In this document: piece after piece, positions 5,447 to 37,833 of the stretch | Numbering within the stretch: position 1 is the stretch's first letter | Layout: each line of letters begins with the position of its first letter | Origin: Dehalobacter sp. | GTDB lineage: Bacteria > Bacillota > Desulfitobacteriia > Desulfitobacteriales > Syntrophobotulaceae | Reading direction: 5' to 3' | Length of the DNA: 41,749 bases | Assembly: GCA_023667845.1 (NCBI GenBank) | Contig: JAMPIU010000051.1 | Location: 1-41,749, forward strand | Made by a program: the position numbers and the translations under genes | The notes under the pieces: model-generated | Seen by the model: only the letters and a program-made list of their open reading frames with translations | Database searches by the model: none | What the model was told of the DNA's origin: nothing

Positions 5447-7048
5447 TCAATCGTCGCATTTGCTCTTAGCATACGGTACTCGGCAATGCTCCGGAGCATT
5501 TGCCGGGAGTAACTGAATCACCCAGTCCGGTTGTGTTTGATCAAGGTTAGGAGCAGTTGTTAAGACATATACCAGATACCTATACGGATCAAGGTTGTTC
5601 TCCTTGGCGGTTTCAATTAGGCTGTATATCACCGCGCTGCCCTCAGCCCCATTTGGCGTATTAGCGAATAGAAAGTTTTTTCGGCTCATGACAAACGGTT
5701 TTATGCTCCATTCTGCTCGGTTGTTAGAGAGCTCCAGCCGGCCGGCCTTCAGATACTCTATCAAGTGAGGCCACTGCTGTTGCAGATAATACAAGGCTTT
5801 TCCAAGGGCAGACTTCGGAGCTGCGTTTCTTGTTCGTGCCCATGTTAGCATTGCATCCAGTACCGGTTTTTCCAGCTCCAGCCGCTGGGTATATCGTTCT
5901 TCAGGGGAAAGACATTTAAGCTTATCCTCAATTGAGAATAGCTTGTTGCAATACTCTTGCCCAATTATTGCCGAAGATCCTTTTTGCTCGGATTTCGGTA
6001 AGGAATTGACTGCCTCATCAAATTTGCGCCGAGCATGGGCCCAGCAGCCAACTACCGTGATGTTTTCCGGCAACGTGTAATAGGCCTGATAACCGTCAGC
6101 ATGCAGGTATCCGGAGAATCCTTCCAAAAATTTCTTCGGGTTTTCAGCTTTCCGATCAGGCTTGTATTCATAAAGCACAATCGGCTGATCAGTATCCCCG
6201 CCGGTTCTGTACATCCACATGTAGCTTTTGGCTTGCGCCTTCTTGCCTGGTTCCCGCAACACCTGCAAGGTGGTCTCGTCCGCGAATAGAACACTGTGCT
6301 GCAAGAGCCGTCGGTGCATCTCCTCGTACACTGGTTTCAACCAGTCCTCAGATGCTCTTAATATCCAGCTGGACATCGTCTGGCGGGATAGCATCACGCC
6401 GCTTCGGTTAAGCTCCTGTTCCTGTCGGTAAAGAGGAGAATACATCACGAATTTCTGGGTCATGATGTGGGCTATCGCTTCCGGGGAGGCAAAGCTTCCC
6501 GCGATGACGGGTTTATTTTTTTGCGTTTTCAGCACGGGGGTTTCCAAGGCCTCTGCTTTACAGGTCAAGCAGGCATAGCTGAAATACCAGTCTTCACGGA
6601 TTTTTACCTGAGCCGGAATAATTACAAGGCTGCGGCGGACTTCCTTGCCGATTTCCTGCATGACAGTATCGCAGGATGCGCAGAGCCGTTCTTCGTCTGG
6701 AAGACGATGCTCAACTACTTCAACAGGGACATTATCCGGCAGAATTTCCTCAAGGCTACCAGAACGCTTTTTGCGGGTATGGGCGGCAACCTTTGTTTTC
6801 TCCGATGGCTCGATTTTTATATACGCTTCCGCCTCGTTAAACAGAAGGCTCAGCTGCTCCATGACCGCTTCCTGCGTTTTCTCGGTGGAAGATCCGAAGC
6901 GCTTCTTTTGGTTCAGGCGTATCTGTTGTATAAGCCACTCGATTTGCCGACCTTGCTCCGCATTCTGCTCTTTAAGCGCTTCATATTCGGTACGTGAAAT
7001 GGTGACCATTTCAGCGTTATTCATCTCATTTTTTTGTAGCTCTTTCAT
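5447..7048 (-). CDS. tnpC: IS66 family transposase TnpC
   Basis: A 533-residue DDE transposase, full length for the family. Residues 20-60 form a leucine-rich coiled coil. A zinc-binding segment follows with Cys at 123/126 and 160/163. The catalytic core has Asp257 in FADETT, Asp318 in LHADGYQAY and Glu446 in NNRAEWSIKPF, plus a C-terminal IS66 domain. It is the last gene of the tnpA-tnpB-tnpC set, 71 bp downstream of tnpB. No frameshift or internal stop is visible, so the element may still be active. Confidence 0.95.
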   Translation of the reverse strand: MKELQKNEMNNAEMVTISRTEYEALKEQNAEQGRQIEWLIQQIRLNQKKRFGSSTEKTQEAVMEQLSLLFNEAEAYIKIEPSEKTKVAAHTRKKRSGSLEEILPDNVPVEVVEHRLPDEERLCASCDTVMQEIGKEVRRSLVIIPAQVKIREDWYFSYACLTCKAEALETPVLKTQKNKPVIAGSFASPEAIAHIMTQKFVMYSPLYRQEQELNRSGVMLSRQTMSSWILRASEDWLKPVYEEMHRRLLQHSVLFADETTLQVLREPGKKAQAKSYMWMYRTGGDTDQPIVLYEYKPDRKAENPKKFLEGFSGYLHADGYQAYYTLPENITVVGCWAHARRKFDEAVNSLPKSEQKGSSAIIGQEYCNKLFSIEDKLKCLSPEERYTQRLELEKPVLDAMLTWARTRNAAPKSALGKALYYLQQQWPHLIEYLKAGRLELSNNRAEWSIKPFVMSRKNFLFANTPNGAEGSAVIYSLIETAKENNLDPYRYLVYVLTTAPNLDQTQPDWVIQLLPANAPEHCRVPYAKSKCDD

Positions 7049-30032: not shown

Positions 30033-30116
30033 GATCAATTATAAACTTCGACAAAACATCCTAATATTCGATAAAGGAATATGGCGCTATTTGAAGAATT
30101 TTCCTTATAATTGATC
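30033..30116 (+). promoter_or_regulatory. promoter/operator candidate of the comXQPA-like operon
   Basis: GATCAATTATAA (30033-30044) and TTATAATTGATC (30105-30116) are perfect 12-bp inverted arms 60 bp apart; the right arm contains TATAAT (30107-30112), a likely -10 box. Between them TTCGACAAA (30047-30055) and TTCGATAAA (30067-30075) are spaced 20 bp, two helical turns. No clear -35 is seen, which fits activator-dependent control. The Bacillus ComA box (TTGCGG-N4-CCGCAA) is absent. Confidence 0.45.
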
Positions 30117-30214: not shown

Positions 30215-30409
30215 ATGAACTATGAAGGTATTGCTAATTTGGTTCATAAATGTGTCAAAAATCCCAAATTGCTAACCCAGGCTGACCATCAGGGTGAGAA
30301 GACCGCAAAACCCATTGAGTTTTGTGTTATTCAGAATGTTTTTTCCCGGTGTGAAGTATCCGGGGGTATTGTCTCAATTGAAGTAAGCCCTCTTATTCAG
30401 TGGTCATAG
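30215..30409 (+). CDS. comX: ComX-like isoprenyl-peptide pheromone precursor
   Basis: A 64-residue peptide without a signal sequence or membrane segment. As in Bacillus ComX, the N-terminal part is a short amphipathic helix followed by NPKLL, and the C terminus carries a Trp next to the end (W63, in SPLIQWS); ComX is prenylated on such a Trp and cut to a short C-terminal pheromone. AAAGGGG lies 9 nt before ATG. It is followed after 5 bp by an isoprenyl synthase gene, then by kinase and response-regulator genes. Identification rests mainly on size, the Trp and this context, since ComX peptides hardly align. In Bacillus the order is Q-X-P-A; here the peptide gene comes first. Confidence 0.7.
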   Translation: MNYEGIANLVHKCVKNPKLLTQADHQGEKTAKPIEFCVIQNVFSRCEVSGGIVSIEVSPLIQWS

Positions 30410-30414
30410 AATAA

Positions 30415-31365
30415 ATGAATTTTCAGCTTGATCAAAACATCTTTGCAGAAATTGATAGGATTATGGAAGCAACAAAACTTAGTGCTGAAATGTGTCAAAT
30501 GATTCAAAATTCGTTGAATGCAGACAGTAGTACGGGTGAATTATTTAAATGGGCCTATTTAGCCACTATGAGTTGCGAGTGTACAGGAGGAAAGCCAGAA
30601 ACTGCGCTGCCGGGAGCAATTGCGATGGAGTTTTTTGCCTTGGCAGCGGATATTTTTGACGATATTCAAGATCAGGATCATGATGACCTGCCCTGGCGAA
30701 AAATTTCGGAAGCGAAAGCCATAAGCCTGGCAAATTGTCTTTTAATGTTAAGCGATGAGGCAATTAGCGAAATTCAGGATGACAGGATTTATAGAGAAAT
30801 CAGTAAGACTATACACCGCGCTGGGGTAATTGCCAGTGATGGTCAGTTTAGGGAGTTCCTTTATGCTGATTGTGATCAGATTTCTCTTGAGCAATACTTT
30901 GAAATAGTTAAGCGAAAGTCAGGAAGTTTAACTTCCTGTGCGTGTGAAATAGGAGCGATCCTGGGAGGGGCTTCGGATTCTATTAAAGAGTTGTTAGCAG
31001 AGTTTGGCCAAAACTTTGGGATCATGAACCAAATCCGCAACGATTTAAATGACTTTCTGGATTTTCAGAAAAAACATGATTTTACAAATAATATAAAGAC
31101 CTTACCCTATGTTTACCTTTTACACACAGTAAAAGAAGTGGGTCAGTTCCATCTGCGAAAAAAGGGAAAAGGCTACCGGTCGCAACAATTATTGGATAAT
31201 GAAAAAGAATTGCTGAAAAGAACTTCTGACGAAGAAGGGGTTAGTCAATATTGTACCGTCATGTTTGAAATTTATCGCCATATTGCTGATGAAATCCTTG
31301 AAAGGCTTCCCGTTCCAGAAAAACAAAAGGAGAAGATGAAAAAACTTGTGGGAGAAATTTTTTAA
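30415..31365 (+). CDS. comQ: ComQ-like isoprenyl transferase (polyprenyl synthase fold)
   Basis: A 316-residue all-helical protein of the trans-isoprenyl-diphosphate synthase fold. The first Asp-rich motif is FDDIQD (D82, D83, D86) and the second NDLND (N209, D210, D213); K168-S169-G170 in VKRKSGSL matches the conserved Lys region. Both metal-binding motifs are intact. In Bacillus, ComQ attaches a farnesyl or geranyl group to the Trp of ComX. Neighbourhood with a short Trp-ending peptide and a ComP-like kinase favours that role over ordinary prenyl-diphosphate synthesis. No clear Shine-Dalgarno precedes the ATG, which is 5 bp after comX, suggesting coupling. It overlaps the kinase gene by 20 nt. 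Confidence 0.8.
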   Translation: MNFQLDQNIFAEIDRIMEATKLSAEMCQMIQNSLNADSSTGELFKWAYLATMSCECTGGKPETALPGAIAMEFFALAADIFDDIQDQDHDDLPWRKISEAKAISLANCLLMLSDEAISEIQDDRIYREISKTIHRAGVIASDGQFREFLYADCDQISLEQYFEIVKRKSGSLTSCACEIGAILGGASDSIKELLAEFGQNFGIMNQIRNDLNDFLDFQKKHDFTNNIKTLPYVYLLHTVKEVGQFHLRKKGKGYRSQQLLDNEKELLKRTSDEEGVSQYCTVMFEIYRHIADEILERLPVPEKQKEKMKKLVGEIF

Positions 31366-33694
31366 TCGGCATATCTATTATTTGGCAAGTGTGATTTTCA
31401 TTGTGCTAGGATTTGTTTACTTTGTTGCTTGTCTGGATCGGCCATATATAGGTGTTGATCTAAAAAACGTAAACAGCCACTGGCTGGTGGTAACATGCGA
31501 TTCTATTGGCGAAGCATATCAATCCGGGATAGAGTTGGGGGATGAAATCCTCAAAATTGACGGTAAAGATCCTAGTAAAAACCTCATTGTTCAAAAATGG
31601 AACCTACTAGAAGATGCTACAACAATCGAATTCCTCAGTCCGGGACAAATAACTTCCAAAGTAATTACTATACATAAACAAATTGATTTGTTTACAGCAT
31701 TGAGTGAAATCCCGTTAATCGTATTAGGGTTTACGTTTTGGCTATTGGGTTTTTTAACTTGGTACAAGCGACCTTTTTTAAAACAAGCTCGTACTTTATT
31801 TTGGATGCTTTGGTTATTTGCCTTAGCAATTATTTTAACTCGGGCTTCAGGCCGTTGTTTGCTTTTGGCCAAAGAATTGGAGTTTGTCACGTTTTCATTA
31901 GCACCTGTTTATCTTATTCGTTTTTTTTCGGTTTTTCCTGCTGATCAATCAAGAAAGATCAATAAATATGGCCAATTATTTACAATAATTATTTTTACAG
32001 TCATAACAATTTTGACAATTATGCAATTTTCAGGTCTTGTCCAATTAGGAAGGTTAATAAGAAATTTGTCATTATCGAATATGCTTATAGGCATTTTTAT
32101 TTCGATATGGAACTTAAGTCAGATAATAAAGTTCCCAAAAGAACGGCCGGAAAAGAATGAAGCTAGTATTACTTTGTTAGGAATGATTATTGGTTTTTTA
32201 CCTAACGTATTATTTGTTGCTGTTCCCTTATTTTTCACTTTAAATATAAGGGTATATACCGAATTAAGTTTTCTATTTGTCGCCGCTATTCCTATTTCAC
32301 TCTATTATGTTATTACAAATAAATATTTACCGGATAGTCGAAGGTTGTATGAAATCATTATTACAAATTCTTTAGCCGGGATAATCATTAGTTTCCTCAC
32401 GTATTTTATCCTATACAAAATCAAATTTATTCAATCCATGAACTTCGAGCTTTATTTAGCTGTATTTATTTTATCAATATTATTTATTATTTGTTTTTAT
32501 TTAATACGAACAGCAATAAGTAAAATATTTAATAATATGAGTCAAAGCAAATTTAGTGTTAAACAAAGAACCATTCAACTAGAAGAAAATGCTACATTAC
32601 TGTTAGCAAAAGATCAACTCTTCAAAGATCTGATTCAAAATTTAGGGATTGACGGGGCTTTTATTATTGTAGAAAACGAACAGACAGGCTGTTTTGAAAA
32701 GTCATTTGGCCGGTTTAAGAATAATTGTAAAGAACAGTCAAAGTTAGAAGAGTATTTTCGTCAAAATCAAAAGCTGGATCTTGAAGCAGAGTTTCTTCCA
32801 GAGGAGTTTCCGGCCGAAATTTTTGTACCGTTTAGTTCTCATAATTCTCGCTGCGGAATCTTTTTTGGACACCGCTATTCACATGTCAAATTTGATAAGT
32901 CCGAATTGCCTTTTCTGACGTTACTTGCCGGTCAGTTAGCTTATCAGGTACTGATGCAGCTCGTTGTTGTTGATCTGACTAAAGAAATTAATTACCTGAA
33001 CAAAACGTTCTCGAACTCTCATAGAAGAAACCGGGAACTTCAGCATATTACCAATTCCTTAATCCGAATGATTGAACGAGGTAAAGGAAGCCTGGCCAAA
33101 GAAATATTGGATGGCCCGGTACAGAGCGCCCTGGATATCAGCCGCTGGCTTAAACTACTGGAAAAGGAAAATCTGGACGATGATACGTCCCAACAGGCAA
33201 TTTCGCGGATGAGGGATCTGATTAATGATCTAAATTATGATCTGAATCAAACAATTCACCATTTGCGTCCGTCGGTTTTAGCGGATTTGGGTTTAGTTCC
33301 TGCCATACAGTCGCTATCCCAGGATATTATGCTGAAGGAACCAAGTTTCATTCTACTGGAAACAGAAGGAATCGGGTTGGATGACCGTTTTGCGGAAGAT
33401 ATTGAAATCACCGCTTACCGCTTTATACAAAAAGGAATATTCAATTCCCTGCGTTATTCGGGTTCGAAGAAGCAGACAGTCCGTATTGAATTAAGCGGAG
33501 AAAAATTGGAATTAACGGTGAAGGATAATGGACAAGGTTTCGACCCCGATCAACTTGAAAAAGGATTATTAGGCGGGGCACATTACGGCTTGGCAATCAT
33601 GAAAGAACGCATTGAGAGCCTGGGGGGGCAGATGCTGATTGATTCCGGCTTTGAGCGTGGAACAATACTTCAAGCAACAATACCGGTATATTAA
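31346..33694 (+). CDS. comP: ComP-like sensor histidine kinase lacking the phosphoacceptor His
   Basis: A 782-residue membrane sensor. One helix (about 9-28), then a PDZ-like loop (about 45-110, with SGIELGDEILKIDG), then seven or more helices (to about 390), a GAF-like linker, and a HisKA_3/HATPase_c kinase core, the Bacillus ComP layout. In the dimerisation helix the expected LHDGxxQ reads ILDGPVQ: Leu588 (TTG, 33107-33109) replaces His. The N-box reads YRFIQKGIFN, with Lys696 for the usual Glu but Asn700 kept. DNGQGFD (727 on) and GLAIMKERI are intact. It starts at TTG inside comQ. The N-terminal half is strongly AT-rich. ATP binding looks possible; canonical autophosphorylation does not. 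Confidence 0.8.
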   Translation: MWEKFFNRHIYYLASVIFIVLGFVYFVACLDRPYIGVDLKNVNSHWLVVTCDSIGEAYQSGIELGDEILKIDGKDPSKNLIVQKWNLLEDATTIEFLSPGQITSKVITIHKQIDLFTALSEIPLIVLGFTFWLLGFLTWYKRPFLKQARTLFWMLWLFALAIILTRASGRCLLLAKELEFVTFSLAPVYLIRFFSVFPADQSRKINKYGQLFTIIIFTVITILTIMQFSGLVQLGRLIRNLSLSNMLIGIFISIWNLSQIIKFPKERPEKNEASITLLGMIIGFLPNVLFVAVPLFFTLNIRVYTELSFLFVAAIPISLYYVITNKYLPDSRRLYEIIITNSLAGIIISFLTYFILYKIKFIQSMNFELYLAVFILSILFIICFYLIRTAISKIFNNMSQSKFSVKQRTIQLEENATLLLAKDQLFKDLIQNLGIDGAFIIVENEQTGCFEKSFGRFKNNCKEQSKLEEYFRQNQKLDLEAEFLPEEFPAEIFVPFSSHNSRCGIFFGHRYSHVKFDKSELPFLTLLAGQLAYQVLMQLVVVDLTKEINYLNKTFSNSHRRNRELQHITNSLIRMIERGKGSLAKEILDGPVQSALDISRWLKLLEKENLDDDTSQQAISRMRDLINDLNYDLNQTIHHLRPSVLADLGLVPAIQSLSQDIMLKEPSFILLETEGIGLDDRFAEDIEITAYRFIQKGIFNSLRYSGSKKQTVRIELSGEKLELTVKDNGQGFDPDQLEKGLLGGAHYGLAIMKERIESLGGQMLIDSGFERGTILQATIPVY

Positions 33695-33720
33695 GATGCA
33701 ATTGAAGTTAGGTGGGTTAA

Positions 33721-34371
33721 ATGAACGTTAAAGTTTTAATCGTCGACAGTCACGGGCCGTTTACGGAAAATACCATAGTTCTTTTTTCCATGGAGCCGCA
33801 AATCGAAATCGTGGGAATTTTGAAAAACGGGGGAGAATGCCTTGATTTTGTCCATCAATCTCCGCCTGATGTTGTATTGCTGGATATCCATCTGAATGAT
33901 GGCAACGGAATCTCTTTAATCGAACAAATCCAACGAATTGTGCCCACGATAAAAATCATTTTGATGACTGAATGTAATCAGGAAGGGTATGTCATTGCAG
34001 CGAAGAGTAAAGGGGCTCAGGGGGTAATCTTAAAGGATACGTATATCCGGGAAATGGTTCAAGTCATTCTAAGGGTCATGGACGGCGGTTCTTACTTTTA
34101 TCAAAGTCCTTTAGCTTTTCCCAAAAAACAAATAGACATCGATGATATGCACTTTCCAGTTAAGCCTGTGGAAATTCTGGAAAAAATACTAACGCCTGAA
34201 GAAAAAGAAATCATGAGATTATTGACCAAGAGGTTGTCCAACAAGGAGATAGCTTCCATTTTAGGCGTGTCGGTTCGTGTTCTTAGTGAGCGAATCAATA
34301 TCATCCTTCTGAAATTTGGCGTGAATACCAAGTTAGAGGCTGTTTTAACTTGGCCTTTTGTCGAGACTTAA
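33721..34371 (+). CDS. comA: ComA-like response regulator, NarL/LuxR type
   Basis: A 216-residue two-domain regulator. The receiver domain (1-120) has the phospho-acceptor Asp55 (VLLDIHL), Thr83 and Lys105, but the acidic pair usually seen as VDDH reads VDSH (Asp9, Ser10). The C-terminal LuxR-type helix-turn-helix (about 155-212: LTPEEKEIMRLLTKRLSNKE, EIASILGVSVRVLSERI) binds DNA. It follows the kinase gene after 26 bp and is the last gene of the X-Q-P-A module. Targets unknown; no Bacillus-type ComA box was seen in the window. Confidence 0.85.
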   Translation: MNVKVLIVDSHGPFTENTIVLFSMEPQIEIVGILKNGGECLDFVHQSPPDVVLLDIHLNDGNGISLIEQIQRIVPTIKIILMTECNQEGYVIAAKSKGAQGVILKDTYIREMVQVILRVMDGGSYFYQSPLAFPKKQIDIDDMHFPVKPVEILEKILTPEEKEIMRLLTKRLSNKEIASILGVSVRVLSERINIILLKFGVNTKLEAVLTWPFVET

Positions 34372-34446: not shown

Positions 34447-34577
34447 ACAATTTATTTTAGAAGCCAAGAAAATTTATATTTACATGATGAAAAATAATAC
34501 GTATGATAAAGCCGATATGTTTTGTTGAGAAATGTACAGGTACGTATTTTGAGAACGACAGGGGAAAGCTAAAAAAT

Positions 34578-35684
34578 ATGAAATTAAACATTACACGACA
34601 GTTCCTGGTAGCCATCATTGGCATATTTTTGCTGGCAGTTGTCCTAACCGCTGGAAAATTATTTTTTCAAGTCAATGTCATTAAATTCCATATCCCGAAT
34701 CACTTATACAATCAGGACACTATTTTTTCTTGCCGTGATTATTTAGAAAAGATAGGAGCTATTGTTACCTTGGATGAAAAAGCCCAAGAAATTACAATTC
34801 AAACAGGCTTGGATAGCTATTATCTTGAAATCAAGACTGATTCTGTGCAGGGAATCCCAATCTATGTCGATAACGTGTATATTGGCAAAACACCGGTTAA
34901 AAAAAGGCTTTCAGCAGGAAAATATGTGGTTGTGGCGAAAAATTCCGGACATGTGAGCACAATACGCTATTTAACACTTAAACCAGAAATTGCTTCGGTT
35001 AAACAGATCATATTGCCGGTGGATCAAAAAAACTATGAAGAATTTCTAGATGAAATTATCTTGTTTGGCTACAAACCTATAAGGGTTATGGATTACTATA
35101 ACCATGCTCCAATTACCAAGAAGACTATTGTTTTAAGGCATGATGTGGATGTATCCGCTGAGGATGCCTTAGCTATGGCAAAAATTGAACATCTCAGAGG
35201 AGTCAAAAGTACCTATTATTTTCGTTGGTGCACCGCTGATCCTGAGGTCCTCAAAGAAGTAAGGGCGCTGGGACATGAAGTTGGACTGCATTACGAGACT
35301 TTGGCAGATTATTCTCTGCAATATCATCTCAAATCTGCGCAGGATATTACATCAGATGTCAAACAAGAATTGCGAAGACGGTTAAAGACAGAGATTGTCC
35401 ATTTCCGACAACAGTATGGAGAAATATATACCATTGCTTCCCATGGTGCAAAAGAGAATATAAGGCTTGGTGTTACGAATTATCAGGCAATTATGGCCGG
35501 AGAAAATCCGTATGACTATAATATTATCGGCACTGCCTATGGACCCATAACGCAACGCTTCACGTATATGAGCGATTCAGGCGGTATTTGGGAGCCGTTT
35601 CCTTACCCGAAACTTGAAAGTAACGCCGGCCCATTTTATATCTTGATTCATCCCATCCACTGGGCTTCCGGTTTAAGTCGATAA
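34578..35684 (+). CDS. membrane-anchored protein with PEGA and polysaccharide-deacetylase-like domains
   Basis: A 368-residue protein from the preferred ATG at 34578. An N-terminal membrane helix (about 10-30, FLVAIIGIFLLAVVLTAG) is followed by a PEGA-type beta domain (about 90-140: GIPIYVDNVYIGKTPVKKRL, SAGKYVVV) and a domain starting IVLRHDVDVSAEDALAMAKI, like the WbmS-type relatives of NodB deacetylases that keep the HDxD metal motif. HEVGLHYE and the late His in ILIHPIHW are further candidate ligands. It may modify a surface polysaccharide. An in-frame ATG at 34503 gives 25 more, unlikely-looking residues before the helix; neither start has a good Shine-Dalgarno site. Substrate unknown. 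Confidence 0.7.
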   Translation: MKLNITRQFLVAIIGIFLLAVVLTAGKLFFQVNVIKFHIPNHLYNQDTIFSCRDYLEKIGAIVTLDEKAQEITIQTGLDSYYLEIKTDSVQGIPIYVDNVYIGKTPVKKRLSAGKYVVVAKNSGHVSTIRYLTLKPEIASVKQIILPVDQKNYEEFLDEIILFGYKPIRVMDYYNHAPITKKTIVLRHDVDVSAEDALAMAKIEHLRGVKSTYYFRWCTADPEVLKEVRALGHEVGLHYETLADYSLQYHLKSAQDITSDVKQELRRRLKTEIVHFRQQYGEIYTIASHGAKENIRLGVTNYQAIMAGENPYDYNIIGTAYGPITQRFTYMSDSGGIWEPFPYPKLESNAGPFYILIHPIHWASGLSR

Positions 35685-35889: not shown

Positions 35890-37833
35890 GTGAAAAAATA
35901 CGCAAAACGATATCTTTTTGTACTGTTGACTTTAATCTTATGTCTGGGTTCATTTGTCCCTGAGGCTTTAGCATCTACGATTTCGACCCACCGTATTTTC
36001 GGGGATACACGATATACCACTGCCGCTAATATTGCCAAAGAAGGTTGGTCCGGCGGCTCACAGTGGGCGATTATCGCCTGCGGAAGCAATTTTCCTGATG
36101 CTTTGGCGTCAACCCCTCTGGCAACAAAATATAATGCTCCGATCTTATTGACGGAAAAAGATAGTCTAACGGAGGTTACGAAGTCCACGCTGACTACACT
36201 CGGCATAAAGAATGTCTATATTGTCGGTGGAACAAGTGTCGTTTCTACGACAGTTGAAACACAGCTGAAGTCTATGGGAATCTCAGTTACCCGATTGTTC
36301 GGAAGCGACAGATACAATACTTCAGTTGAGATTGCTCAGCGTATCGGAAATACTTCCGGGAAGCTTGTCGTTGCTCCCGGGGGTGATTATCCAAATGCGC
36401 TTTCGGTTTCATCCTACGCCGGTAAAAAACAAATTCCCATTATCCTGGCCGATAAAAGTACGATCAGCGATAGTCTGAAACAATATTTAGCAAACAACAG
36501 TATTCAACAAACCTATGTGATAGGCAATACGACAGAGATCAGTGATTCAATCGTTAACGCGCTTCCAAACCCGACACGCATTCAAAGCTCCGACCGCTAT
36601 GCAACCAATCTGGCGGTATTGGAAGCCTTCGAATCCGATTACGTTTTCAGCAATACCTTTTTAGCAACCGGGAATAATTTTGCCGATGCGCTTGCTGGAT
36701 CAGCTTATGCGGCCAAGCTGGGGGCTCCGATCATCCTGACCGGAAAGACGCCGGACAGCCGTATTAATACGTATTTTACGGCAATCAGTACGAGCGTTGC
36801 CCAACTCAATATTTTGGGTGGGGAAGCCGCTATAGCAACCACTCTGGTCAATGGTTATCTGGGGATTGAAACAACGGGAACACTGACTGCCAAAGAGATC
36901 TTCACCAAGGTAAGCCCTTCCGTCGTCTATATCGAGACCTATGACAGCAGCGGGAATGCCCTGGGGTCCGGCAGCGGGTTTATCGTGGATTCCAGCGGCA
37001 AAGTCGCGACGAACTACCATGTGATTGAAGGCTCGTACAGTGCTAAAGTAAAGACTGCTGCAGGGACATCCTATGATGTCCAAAAGGTCTTAAGCTATAA
37101 CGAAACAACCGATCTGGCAATACTTAAAATAAGCGGGGCAGGACTGACTGCAGTTTCCCTTGGTGATTCCAGCCTGATTGAAACGGGGGACAATATTTAT
37201 GCAATCGGCAACCCGTTTGGATTAGAAAATACCTTATCTAACGGTTTAATCAGCACAAAATCCAGAGATATTAATGGAACGGCCTATATTCAGATTTCTG
37301 CCCCGATCAGTTCCGGCTCAAGCGGTGGTGCGCTGGTGGATGAGCAGGGAAAAGTCATTGGTATCACAGCGGCCGTATATTATGGGGGCCAGAACTTAAA
37401 CTTTGCAGTTCCGATTAACCTGTTAAGACCAATGCTCTCGGAGAATATTAATAAAACACTGCCGGAAATTCTCCCGGCCATTTACAGTGTCTTTTCCAAT
37501 ATGGCTTCTTATATTCAGAATGCCTACGGCACAAATGTAATTGCAGGTCAAACGATCAAATATGATATTGTCGTGACTGCCTACCAGGGTAATACCGATA
37601 CTTCCCATGACGGAAGCGCATTTATCGTATTTACGGTTACTTCTGAGACAGATGCTGCCGAATCAGACGTACTGGATAATCATTACAGTTCTTATCTTGT
37701 ATGGCTGGAGGCTATGTTGAATGATCTCCAAGCAAGATACGGTACGAATGCGTTTAGCGGTGGAATGTACTACGGAGATAAATTTTATATTATATTCGAT
37801 AATTGGGACGGGTCTGTTCAATACTGGTATTAA
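35890..37833 (+). CDS. cell-wall-binding, HtrA-like serine protease
   Basis: A 647-residue exported protein. A signal peptide (1-29, ending EALAS) is followed by three cell-wall-binding type 2 repeats (about 34-130, 134-222, 228-322; each with a GxxRYxT or SDRYxT start and PDALA/ADALAG-like motif), then a trypsin-like domain (about 335-515) with the triad His377 (TNYHVIE), Asp408 (TTDLAIL) and Ser478 (SGSSGGAL). The C-terminal 120 residues are of unknown type; there is no PDZ domain. The GTG start has AAAGGAGAT upstream. It probably acts as a wall-attached quality-control or processing protease. Confidence 0.92.
   Translation: MKKYAKRYLFVLLTLILCLGSFVPEALASTISTHRIFGDTRYTTAANIAKEGWSGGSQWAIIACGSNFPDALASTPLATKYNAPILLTEKDSLTEVTKSTLTTLGIKNVYIVGGTSVVSTTVETQLKSMGISVTRLFGSDRYNTSVEIAQRIGNTSGKLVVAPGGDYPNALSVSSYAGKKQIPIILADKSTISDSLKQYLANNSIQQTYVIGNTTEISDSIVNALPNPTRIQSSDRYATNLAVLEAFESDYVFSNTFLATGNNFADALAGSAYAAKLGAPIILTGKTPDSRINTYFTAISTSVAQLNILGGEAAIATTLVNGYLGIETTGTLTAKEIFTKVSPSVVYIETYDSSGNALGSGSGFIVDSSGKVATNYHVIEGSYSAKVKTAAGTSYDVQKVLSYNETTDLAILKISGAGLTAVSLGDSSLIETGDNIYAIGNPFGLENTLSNGLISTKSRDINGTAYIQISAPISSGSSGGALVDEQGKVIGITAAVYYGGQNLNFAVPINLLRPMLSENINKTLPEILPAIYSVFSNMASYIQNAYGTNVIAGQTIKYDIVVTAYQGNTDTSHDGSAFIVFTVTSETDAAESDVLDNHYSSYLVWLEAMLNDLQARYGTNAFSGGMYYGDKFYIIFDNWDGSVQYWY

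Follow-up and report, generated by a model that had tools for sequence, protein, structure and literature searches.

A likely ComX-type pheromone operon of a distinct, peptide-first (X-Q-P-A) branch in Dehalobacter sp.

The closest described relative of the locus analyzed here is the ComQXPA system of Bacillus subtilis, in which the genes lie in the order Q-X-P-A. ComQXPA-like loci outside Bacillus were reported in 2014 from Clostridiales, with Desulfosporosinus and Syntrophobotulus; in that work the ComX precursor was defined by a Trp near its C-terminal end and a length of 52 to 73 aa, and variation in gene order was described only for atypical loci, in which X is encoded on the opposite strand (PMC4008528). 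ComQ of strain RO-E-2 requires an NDxxx or GDxxx motif for Trp prenylation, loses most of its activity upon an N-to-D change and tolerates Trp at the second, third or fourth position from the precursor end (PMC5331326). Bacillus ComP crosses the membrane ten times, a PDZ fold separating transmembrane (TM) helices 1 and 2. Its His571 is essential for autophosphorylation, which is abolished by the H571A substitution (PMC9620489). Among Bacillus isolates, comQ, comX and the 5' part of comP are poorly conserved, giving rise to pherotypes (PMC6334282). Two other systems are related in part. In Paenibacillus alvei, the prenyltransferase PalQ, which has an isoprenoid synthase fold, modifies the C-terminal Trp of PalX, a small precursor with a nitrile-hydratase-type leader, and is encoded next to a histidine kinase gene (PalX/PalQ/PalP; PMC10853753). 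The Caulobacter pseudokinase DivL has a histidine-kinase fold that lacks the phosphoacceptor His but has been retained for regulation; it carries Tyr at that position and, as part of a cell-cycle circuit, detects a phosphorylated regulator (PMC4211667).

We analyzed a 41,749-nucleotide stretch of DNA from Dehalobacter sp. (GenBank assembly GCA_023667845.1, contig JAMPIU010000051.1), hereafter called the window, which is contig C51 of a 3.65-Mb genome. The features of interest, in window coordinates, are as follows.

30047-30053, plus strand: TTCGACA, the reverse complement of the Spo0A box TGTCGAA, 168 nt 5' of X.
30215-30409, plus strand: ComX-like precursor gene (X), 64 aa, ending in SPLIQWS, with the predicted core around W63.
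30415-31365, plus strand: ComQ-like gene (Q), a Trp isoprenyltransferase by sequence, 316 aa, with DDIQD at 82-86 and a pseudo-second motif, NDLND, at 209-213.
31346-33694, plus strand: ComP-like receptor gene (P), 782 aa, with a TTG start.
33721-34371, plus strand: ComA-like response regulator gene (A), 216 aa, with a LuxR-type helix-turn-helix (HTH).

The end of Q and the start of P overlap by 20 nt, and the TTG start of P (reading 'LW') is common to its relatives. Pfam assigned Q to the polyprenyl synthetases (PF00348, 74.7 bits), found HATPase_c in P (46.1 bits) together with weak, below-cut-off matches to PDZ_2 (20.6 bits) and HisKA_3 (13.8 bits), and found Response_reg (67.5 bits) and GerE (31.7 bits) in A. 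An NCBIfam search with the four products returned no specific name. The original prediction, made from the sequence alone, had read this as the part list of ComX, ComQ, ComP and ComA in the order X-Q-P-A instead of the Bacillus Q-X-P-A; it was to be abandoned if the small ORF or its Trp were not conserved in homologous loci, or if the 30415 product clustered with housekeeping synthases. Neither came true, and the part list is supported. The four ORFs were confirmed, all on the plus strand, and the order held, as did the 64-residue peptide with a penultimate Trp, the LuxR-type response regulator and the PDZ-containing multi-span sensor, although the PDZ_2 match lies below its cut-off. The core around W63 is retained as a prediction. 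The claim of both Asp-rich motifs in the enzyme held in part, the first being canonical and the second a ComQ-type pseudo-motif, and the term sensor kinase needs a caveat, the phosphoacceptor His being absent. Elsewhere in the window are a PEGA domain with a weak polysaccharide deacetylase match just 3' of the operon (34503-35684), a protein that combines a trypsin-like protease domain with three CWB2 repeats for cell-wall binding (35890-37833) and an IS66 transposase (5447-7048, minus strand).

The loci described below were retrieved and then searched with profiles of the four proteins. Six close relatives of the ComQ-like protein (47 to 96% identity) were found in the same family, all with X upstream. 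At the level of the order, a ComQ-type protein was present in 28 of 74 genomes and X, by profile, in 26; the class-level search gave the same result. An even sample of the phylum yielded ComQ-type proteins in 13 of 398 genomes, five of which lay outside the class, with X first in G110, G149 and G328 and the Bacillus order in G241 and G289. Two groups of loci emerged. X lies upstream of Q in one (33 X sequences), the order being X-Q-P-A or, in L112 and L113 from outside the class, X-Q-A-P. In the other (L027, L054, L104-L109, L115, L116, L140 and L141), X follows Q and precedes P, which is the Bacillus arrangement. The peptide-first order marks the whole first group. No relatives were found among the viral contigs searched, and the plasmids searched held only distant prenyl synthases (<35% identity). 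Genome G020 holds both types, L025 (X-Q-P-A) and L027 (Q-X-P-A), and in L023 about 1.8 kb separates receptor and regulator.

The X ORF is kept 5' of the ComQ-like gene in 32 loci besides the window, with the Trp penultimate in 31 of the 33 sequences and C-terminal in two, and its dN/dS is 0.23 to 0.50; because of this conservation and these ratios, we conclude that the small ORF is not a chance occurrence. The family consensus is MNYxxIAxLVHELVKNP...E..xIQNVFSxxEVSG...PL..W. and the window precursor, with W63 in 64 aa, meets the published ComX definition. However, it was not matched by the Pfam ComX model (PF05952) or by any other Pfam model up to an E value of 1, whereas canonical ComX peptides score 25.7 to 83.5 bits on that model and the X that precedes Q in L112 reaches 33.5 bits (cut-off, 25). 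Profile-profile comparison by hhalign linked the X family to canonical ComX with a probability of 94.7 (E value, 6e-8) when the linking sequences L103 and L111-L113 were included and 81.7 when they were not. By these comparisons the window peptide is a homolog of ComX, a relationship that rests on this profile link and not on a direct Pfam match. As a separate observation, the L112 and L113 peptides connect the new X family to canonical ComX.

The first Asp-rich motif of the ComQ-like enzyme, DDIQD, is invariant in the seven closest sequences and takes the form DDxxDxD in X-first ComQ-type proteins. The second is NDLND (N209, D210), not DDxxD; at this position housekeeping synthases have DDILD and ComQ-type proteins have ND, with the exception of L098 (NN). 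As the motif is NDLND and the Trp stands second from the precursor end, the window fits the rule established for RO-E-2 ComQ. In the tree of Q, 11 housekeeping relatives from the same family separated from the ComQ-type proteins, including that of the window, with support of 100/98. The Q-X-P-A type formed one group (100/99) and the X-first branch was supported at 75/81, the split between the two depending on long branches. Separate housekeeping prenyl synthase copies are present in relatives. An apparent internal TAG in ComQ of L004 and L005 was rejected as an ordinary stop codon near the C-terminal end.

Comparison of the window with L022 and L023 revealed a mosaic: the conserved flanks are about 90 to 95% identical at the DNA level, identity falls to 56 to 77% across X, Q and the N-terminal half of the receptor, and it recovers to 85 to 92% over the receptor C terminus and A. 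This matches the pherotype pattern of Bacillus. Since peptide, enzyme and receptor N terminus diverge together, specific recognition is suggested, and we regard this pattern as the best sequence evidence, albeit inferential, for a working signal that changes specificity.

The AlphaFold2 model of P (mean pLDDT, 77.5), read together with hydropathy for the membrane build, predicted a first TM helix (TM1), a PDZ-like loop (37-108), TM helices to about residue 395, a mixed alpha/beta, GAF-like domain (424-507), a DHp domain (563-639) and an ATP-binding (CA) domain (650-780). Foldseek returned histidine kinase cores, with the CA domain of VraS at a TM score of 0.87 of the target. By model and hydropathy, P has the ComP architecture of TM1, PDZ-like loop, TM bundle, DHp and CA, with about ten TM helices. 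It lacks the H-box phosphoacceptor His, which is present in 36 of 45 aligned receptors; Leu588, in EILDGPVQ (590 in longer-frame numbering), aligns with Bacillus His571. The ATP-binding G boxes are kept, but the N-box is altered (QKG.. versus QEG.., a Glu-to-Lys change in the genus). The regulator has D9, S10, D55 and K105 and a LuxR-type HTH, so that the acid pair is broken and one Mg-binding acid is gone. The two changes go together: in the window, L021-L024, L079 and L083, Leu, Ser or Cys replaces the receptor His, and Ser or Gly replaces the second regulator acid. Both are lost in these 7 loci, both are kept in 33 and only 2 are discordant, namely L090 (receptor Tyr at the His position, regulator intact) and L025 (regulator acid pair broken, kinase intact). 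The seven His-less receptors and two satellite receptors form one clade in the P tree (100/99); therefore, the loss of His is one old event, and the coupled loss counts as one evolutionary event, not seven independent ones. Where dS was unsaturated, a simple counting method gave dN/dS of 0.13 to 0.26 for Q, P and A, which places these genes under purifying selection.

The window's genome encodes a second ComP-like protein, 43% identical to the first, on contig C206. At L142 (G000:C206, 5985-8689), a second X (ending in SPLDSWQ) lies directly 5' of this receptor gene with no Q or A adjoining, and this receptor also lacks the His (KLLTGPYHY). Q-less X-P pairs occur likewise in G004, G006 and G451. 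The search of the window's genome turned up a single ComQ-type gene; one Q may therefore serve both peptides, an inference. Further Q-less X-P loci are L175, with two tandem receptors, L177, L178 and L179, and in the X-P pair L174 (G004:C1:975500-986500) the receptor gene is split in two by about 2.7 kb. Loci L176, L180, L181 and L182 are P-A pairs in which no X or Q was found, possibly listen-only systems; no convincing ORF with a C-terminal Trp was found upstream of these X-less pairs.

The consensus Spo0A box is TGTCGAA, and Spo0A is encoded in the window's genome. TTCGACA occurs at a similar place in L021-L024, L087 and L088, and a perfect box was present in 11 of 33 upstream regions, compared with a mean of 1.0 and a maximum of 4 in 500 shuffles, a count not corrected for the relatedness of the loci. 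Control of the operon by Spo0A is only a guess. A dyad upstream of the window X, ATATTC-N7-GAATAT, was dropped, as it is not kept in relatives.

Taken together, we consider it likely that the locus is a pheromone operon of the ComX type and belongs to a separate X-Q-P-A branch. Its gene order, the homology of all four products, the ComQ-type motifs, the Trp at or next to the C terminus and the pherotype-like divergence are established by sequence, whereas prenylation, secretion and sensing are inferred. This reading is limited by the failure of the Pfam ComX model to reach the window peptide and by the support of only 75/81 for the X-first Q branch, in addition to the inferred nature of the chemistry and signaling. 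In this view, ComQ would modify Trp63 with a geranyl or farnesyl group, the leader would be removed and a short C-terminal peptide would be exported from the cell; the multi-span receptor, with its PDZ-like outer loop, would bind the modified peptide and control the ComA-like regulator. Within the subclade that includes the window, ligand-dependent binding may hold, release or allosterically switch the regulator without His-Asp phosphotransfer. Output by binding seems more likely than phosphotransfer because the receptor has no His and the regulator has half an acid pair; however, the retained G boxes would be odd if ATP were not used, and we put this inferred output at about an even chance. 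Phosphorylation of the regulator by another kinase is possible. The bolder joint reading, that a non-kinase receptor reads a ComX-type pheromone without phosphotransfer and that one ComQ serves two peptide-receptor pairs, we hold to be rather more doubtful than not.

An ordinary ComQXPA-like system with His-Asp phosphotransfer, which would borrow another His or form mixed dimers with another kinase and tolerate Ser10, remains possible. The regulator retains D9, D55 and K105, the receptor retains its ATP-binding motifs and fold, and other proteins matching its kinase part are present in the genome. Against this, the His-less receptors share no alternative conserved His in their DHp region, the second ComP-like protein of the genome likewise has no phosphoacceptor His, Lys stands in place of the N-box Glu in the window and Bacillus ComP with H571A loses autophosphorylation (PMC9620489). 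Alternatively, the operon could be losing function in the genus, with the loss of His as one step. Key residues are indeed gone from both receptor and regulator, and the split second receptor gene in G004 (about 2.7 kb) and the L023 receptor-regulator gap (about 1.8 kb) could be read in this way. We consider such decay unlikely: the frames are open throughout with dN/dS of 0.13 to 0.26, the loss is common to a clade with 52 to 56% receptor identity and is therefore old, and the peptide diversifies yet keeps its Trp.

A prenylated RiPP of the PalX/PalQ kind, with no quorum signal and with receptor and regulator serving self-sensing or production control, has a precedent in PalQ, which prenylates a C-terminal Trp and neighbors a histidine kinase gene (PMC10853753). 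This reading is very unlikely, given that the profile link of X is to ComX, that the window X has no match to a nitrile-hydratase-type leader (Pfam, up to an E value of 1) and that the joint divergence of peptide, enzyme and receptor N terminus suggests specific recognition. That a housekeeping prenyl diphosphate synthase merely lies beside an unrelated two-component system and a chance small ORF, a notion supported only by membership of the same Pfam family, is all but excluded; it is contradicted by the tree, the second motif and the conservation of the small ORF in 33 loci, and relatives have separate housekeeping copies.

The preferred reading, a ComX-type operon, shares with ComQXPA of B. 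subtilis and the Clostridiales loci (PMC4008528) the four protein families, the ComQ-type motifs, the Trp near the precursor C terminus, the receptor build of TM bundle, PDZ-like outer loop, DHp and CA, and pherotype-like polymorphism. It differs in that the new branch is peptide-first (X-Q-P-A, or X-Q-A-P in L112 and L113), the window peptide lies outside the Pfam ComX model and has its Trp second and not third or fourth from the end, Q and P form separate groups, satellite X-P pairs exist and the window's subclade lacks the phosphoacceptor His and one Mg ligand. The locus is thus a variant of the ComX kind and not a ComQXPA member in the strict sense. With Pal it has in common a C-terminal Trp in a small precursor, a prenyltransferase of isoprenoid-synthase fold and a neighboring histidine kinase; however, PalX has its own type of leader, PalQ clusters apart from ComQ and the Pal cluster is given as three genes without a regulator (PMC10853753). 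The absence of the His from a histidine-kinase fold recalls DivL, but no peptide pheromone is part of the DivL circuit (PMC4211667). The original prediction had also noted that, in a Clostridia-like genome, the system would lie outside the well-studied hosts; its presence in Clostridia is not new, ComQXPA-like loci in Clostridiales having been reported in 2014 (PMC4008528). Neither peptide-first loci nor a His-less ComP were found described in the literature searched, which did not extend to subscription papers or to the table supplementing PMC4008528. Where two other papers write 'comXQPA', this is a mere spelling of the name.

These observations would extend isoprenyl-Trp peptide signaling to a large and old branch in anaerobic Bacillota that is so far unstudied and that has a distinct gene order and a peptide family missed by the standard ComX model. 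Because kinase His and regulator acid were lost together, the locus allows a direct test of how a two-component pair may be rewired while selection continues to act on its pheromone and specificity. Should the hosts prove to be organohalide respirers, density signaling in them would bear on bioremediation.
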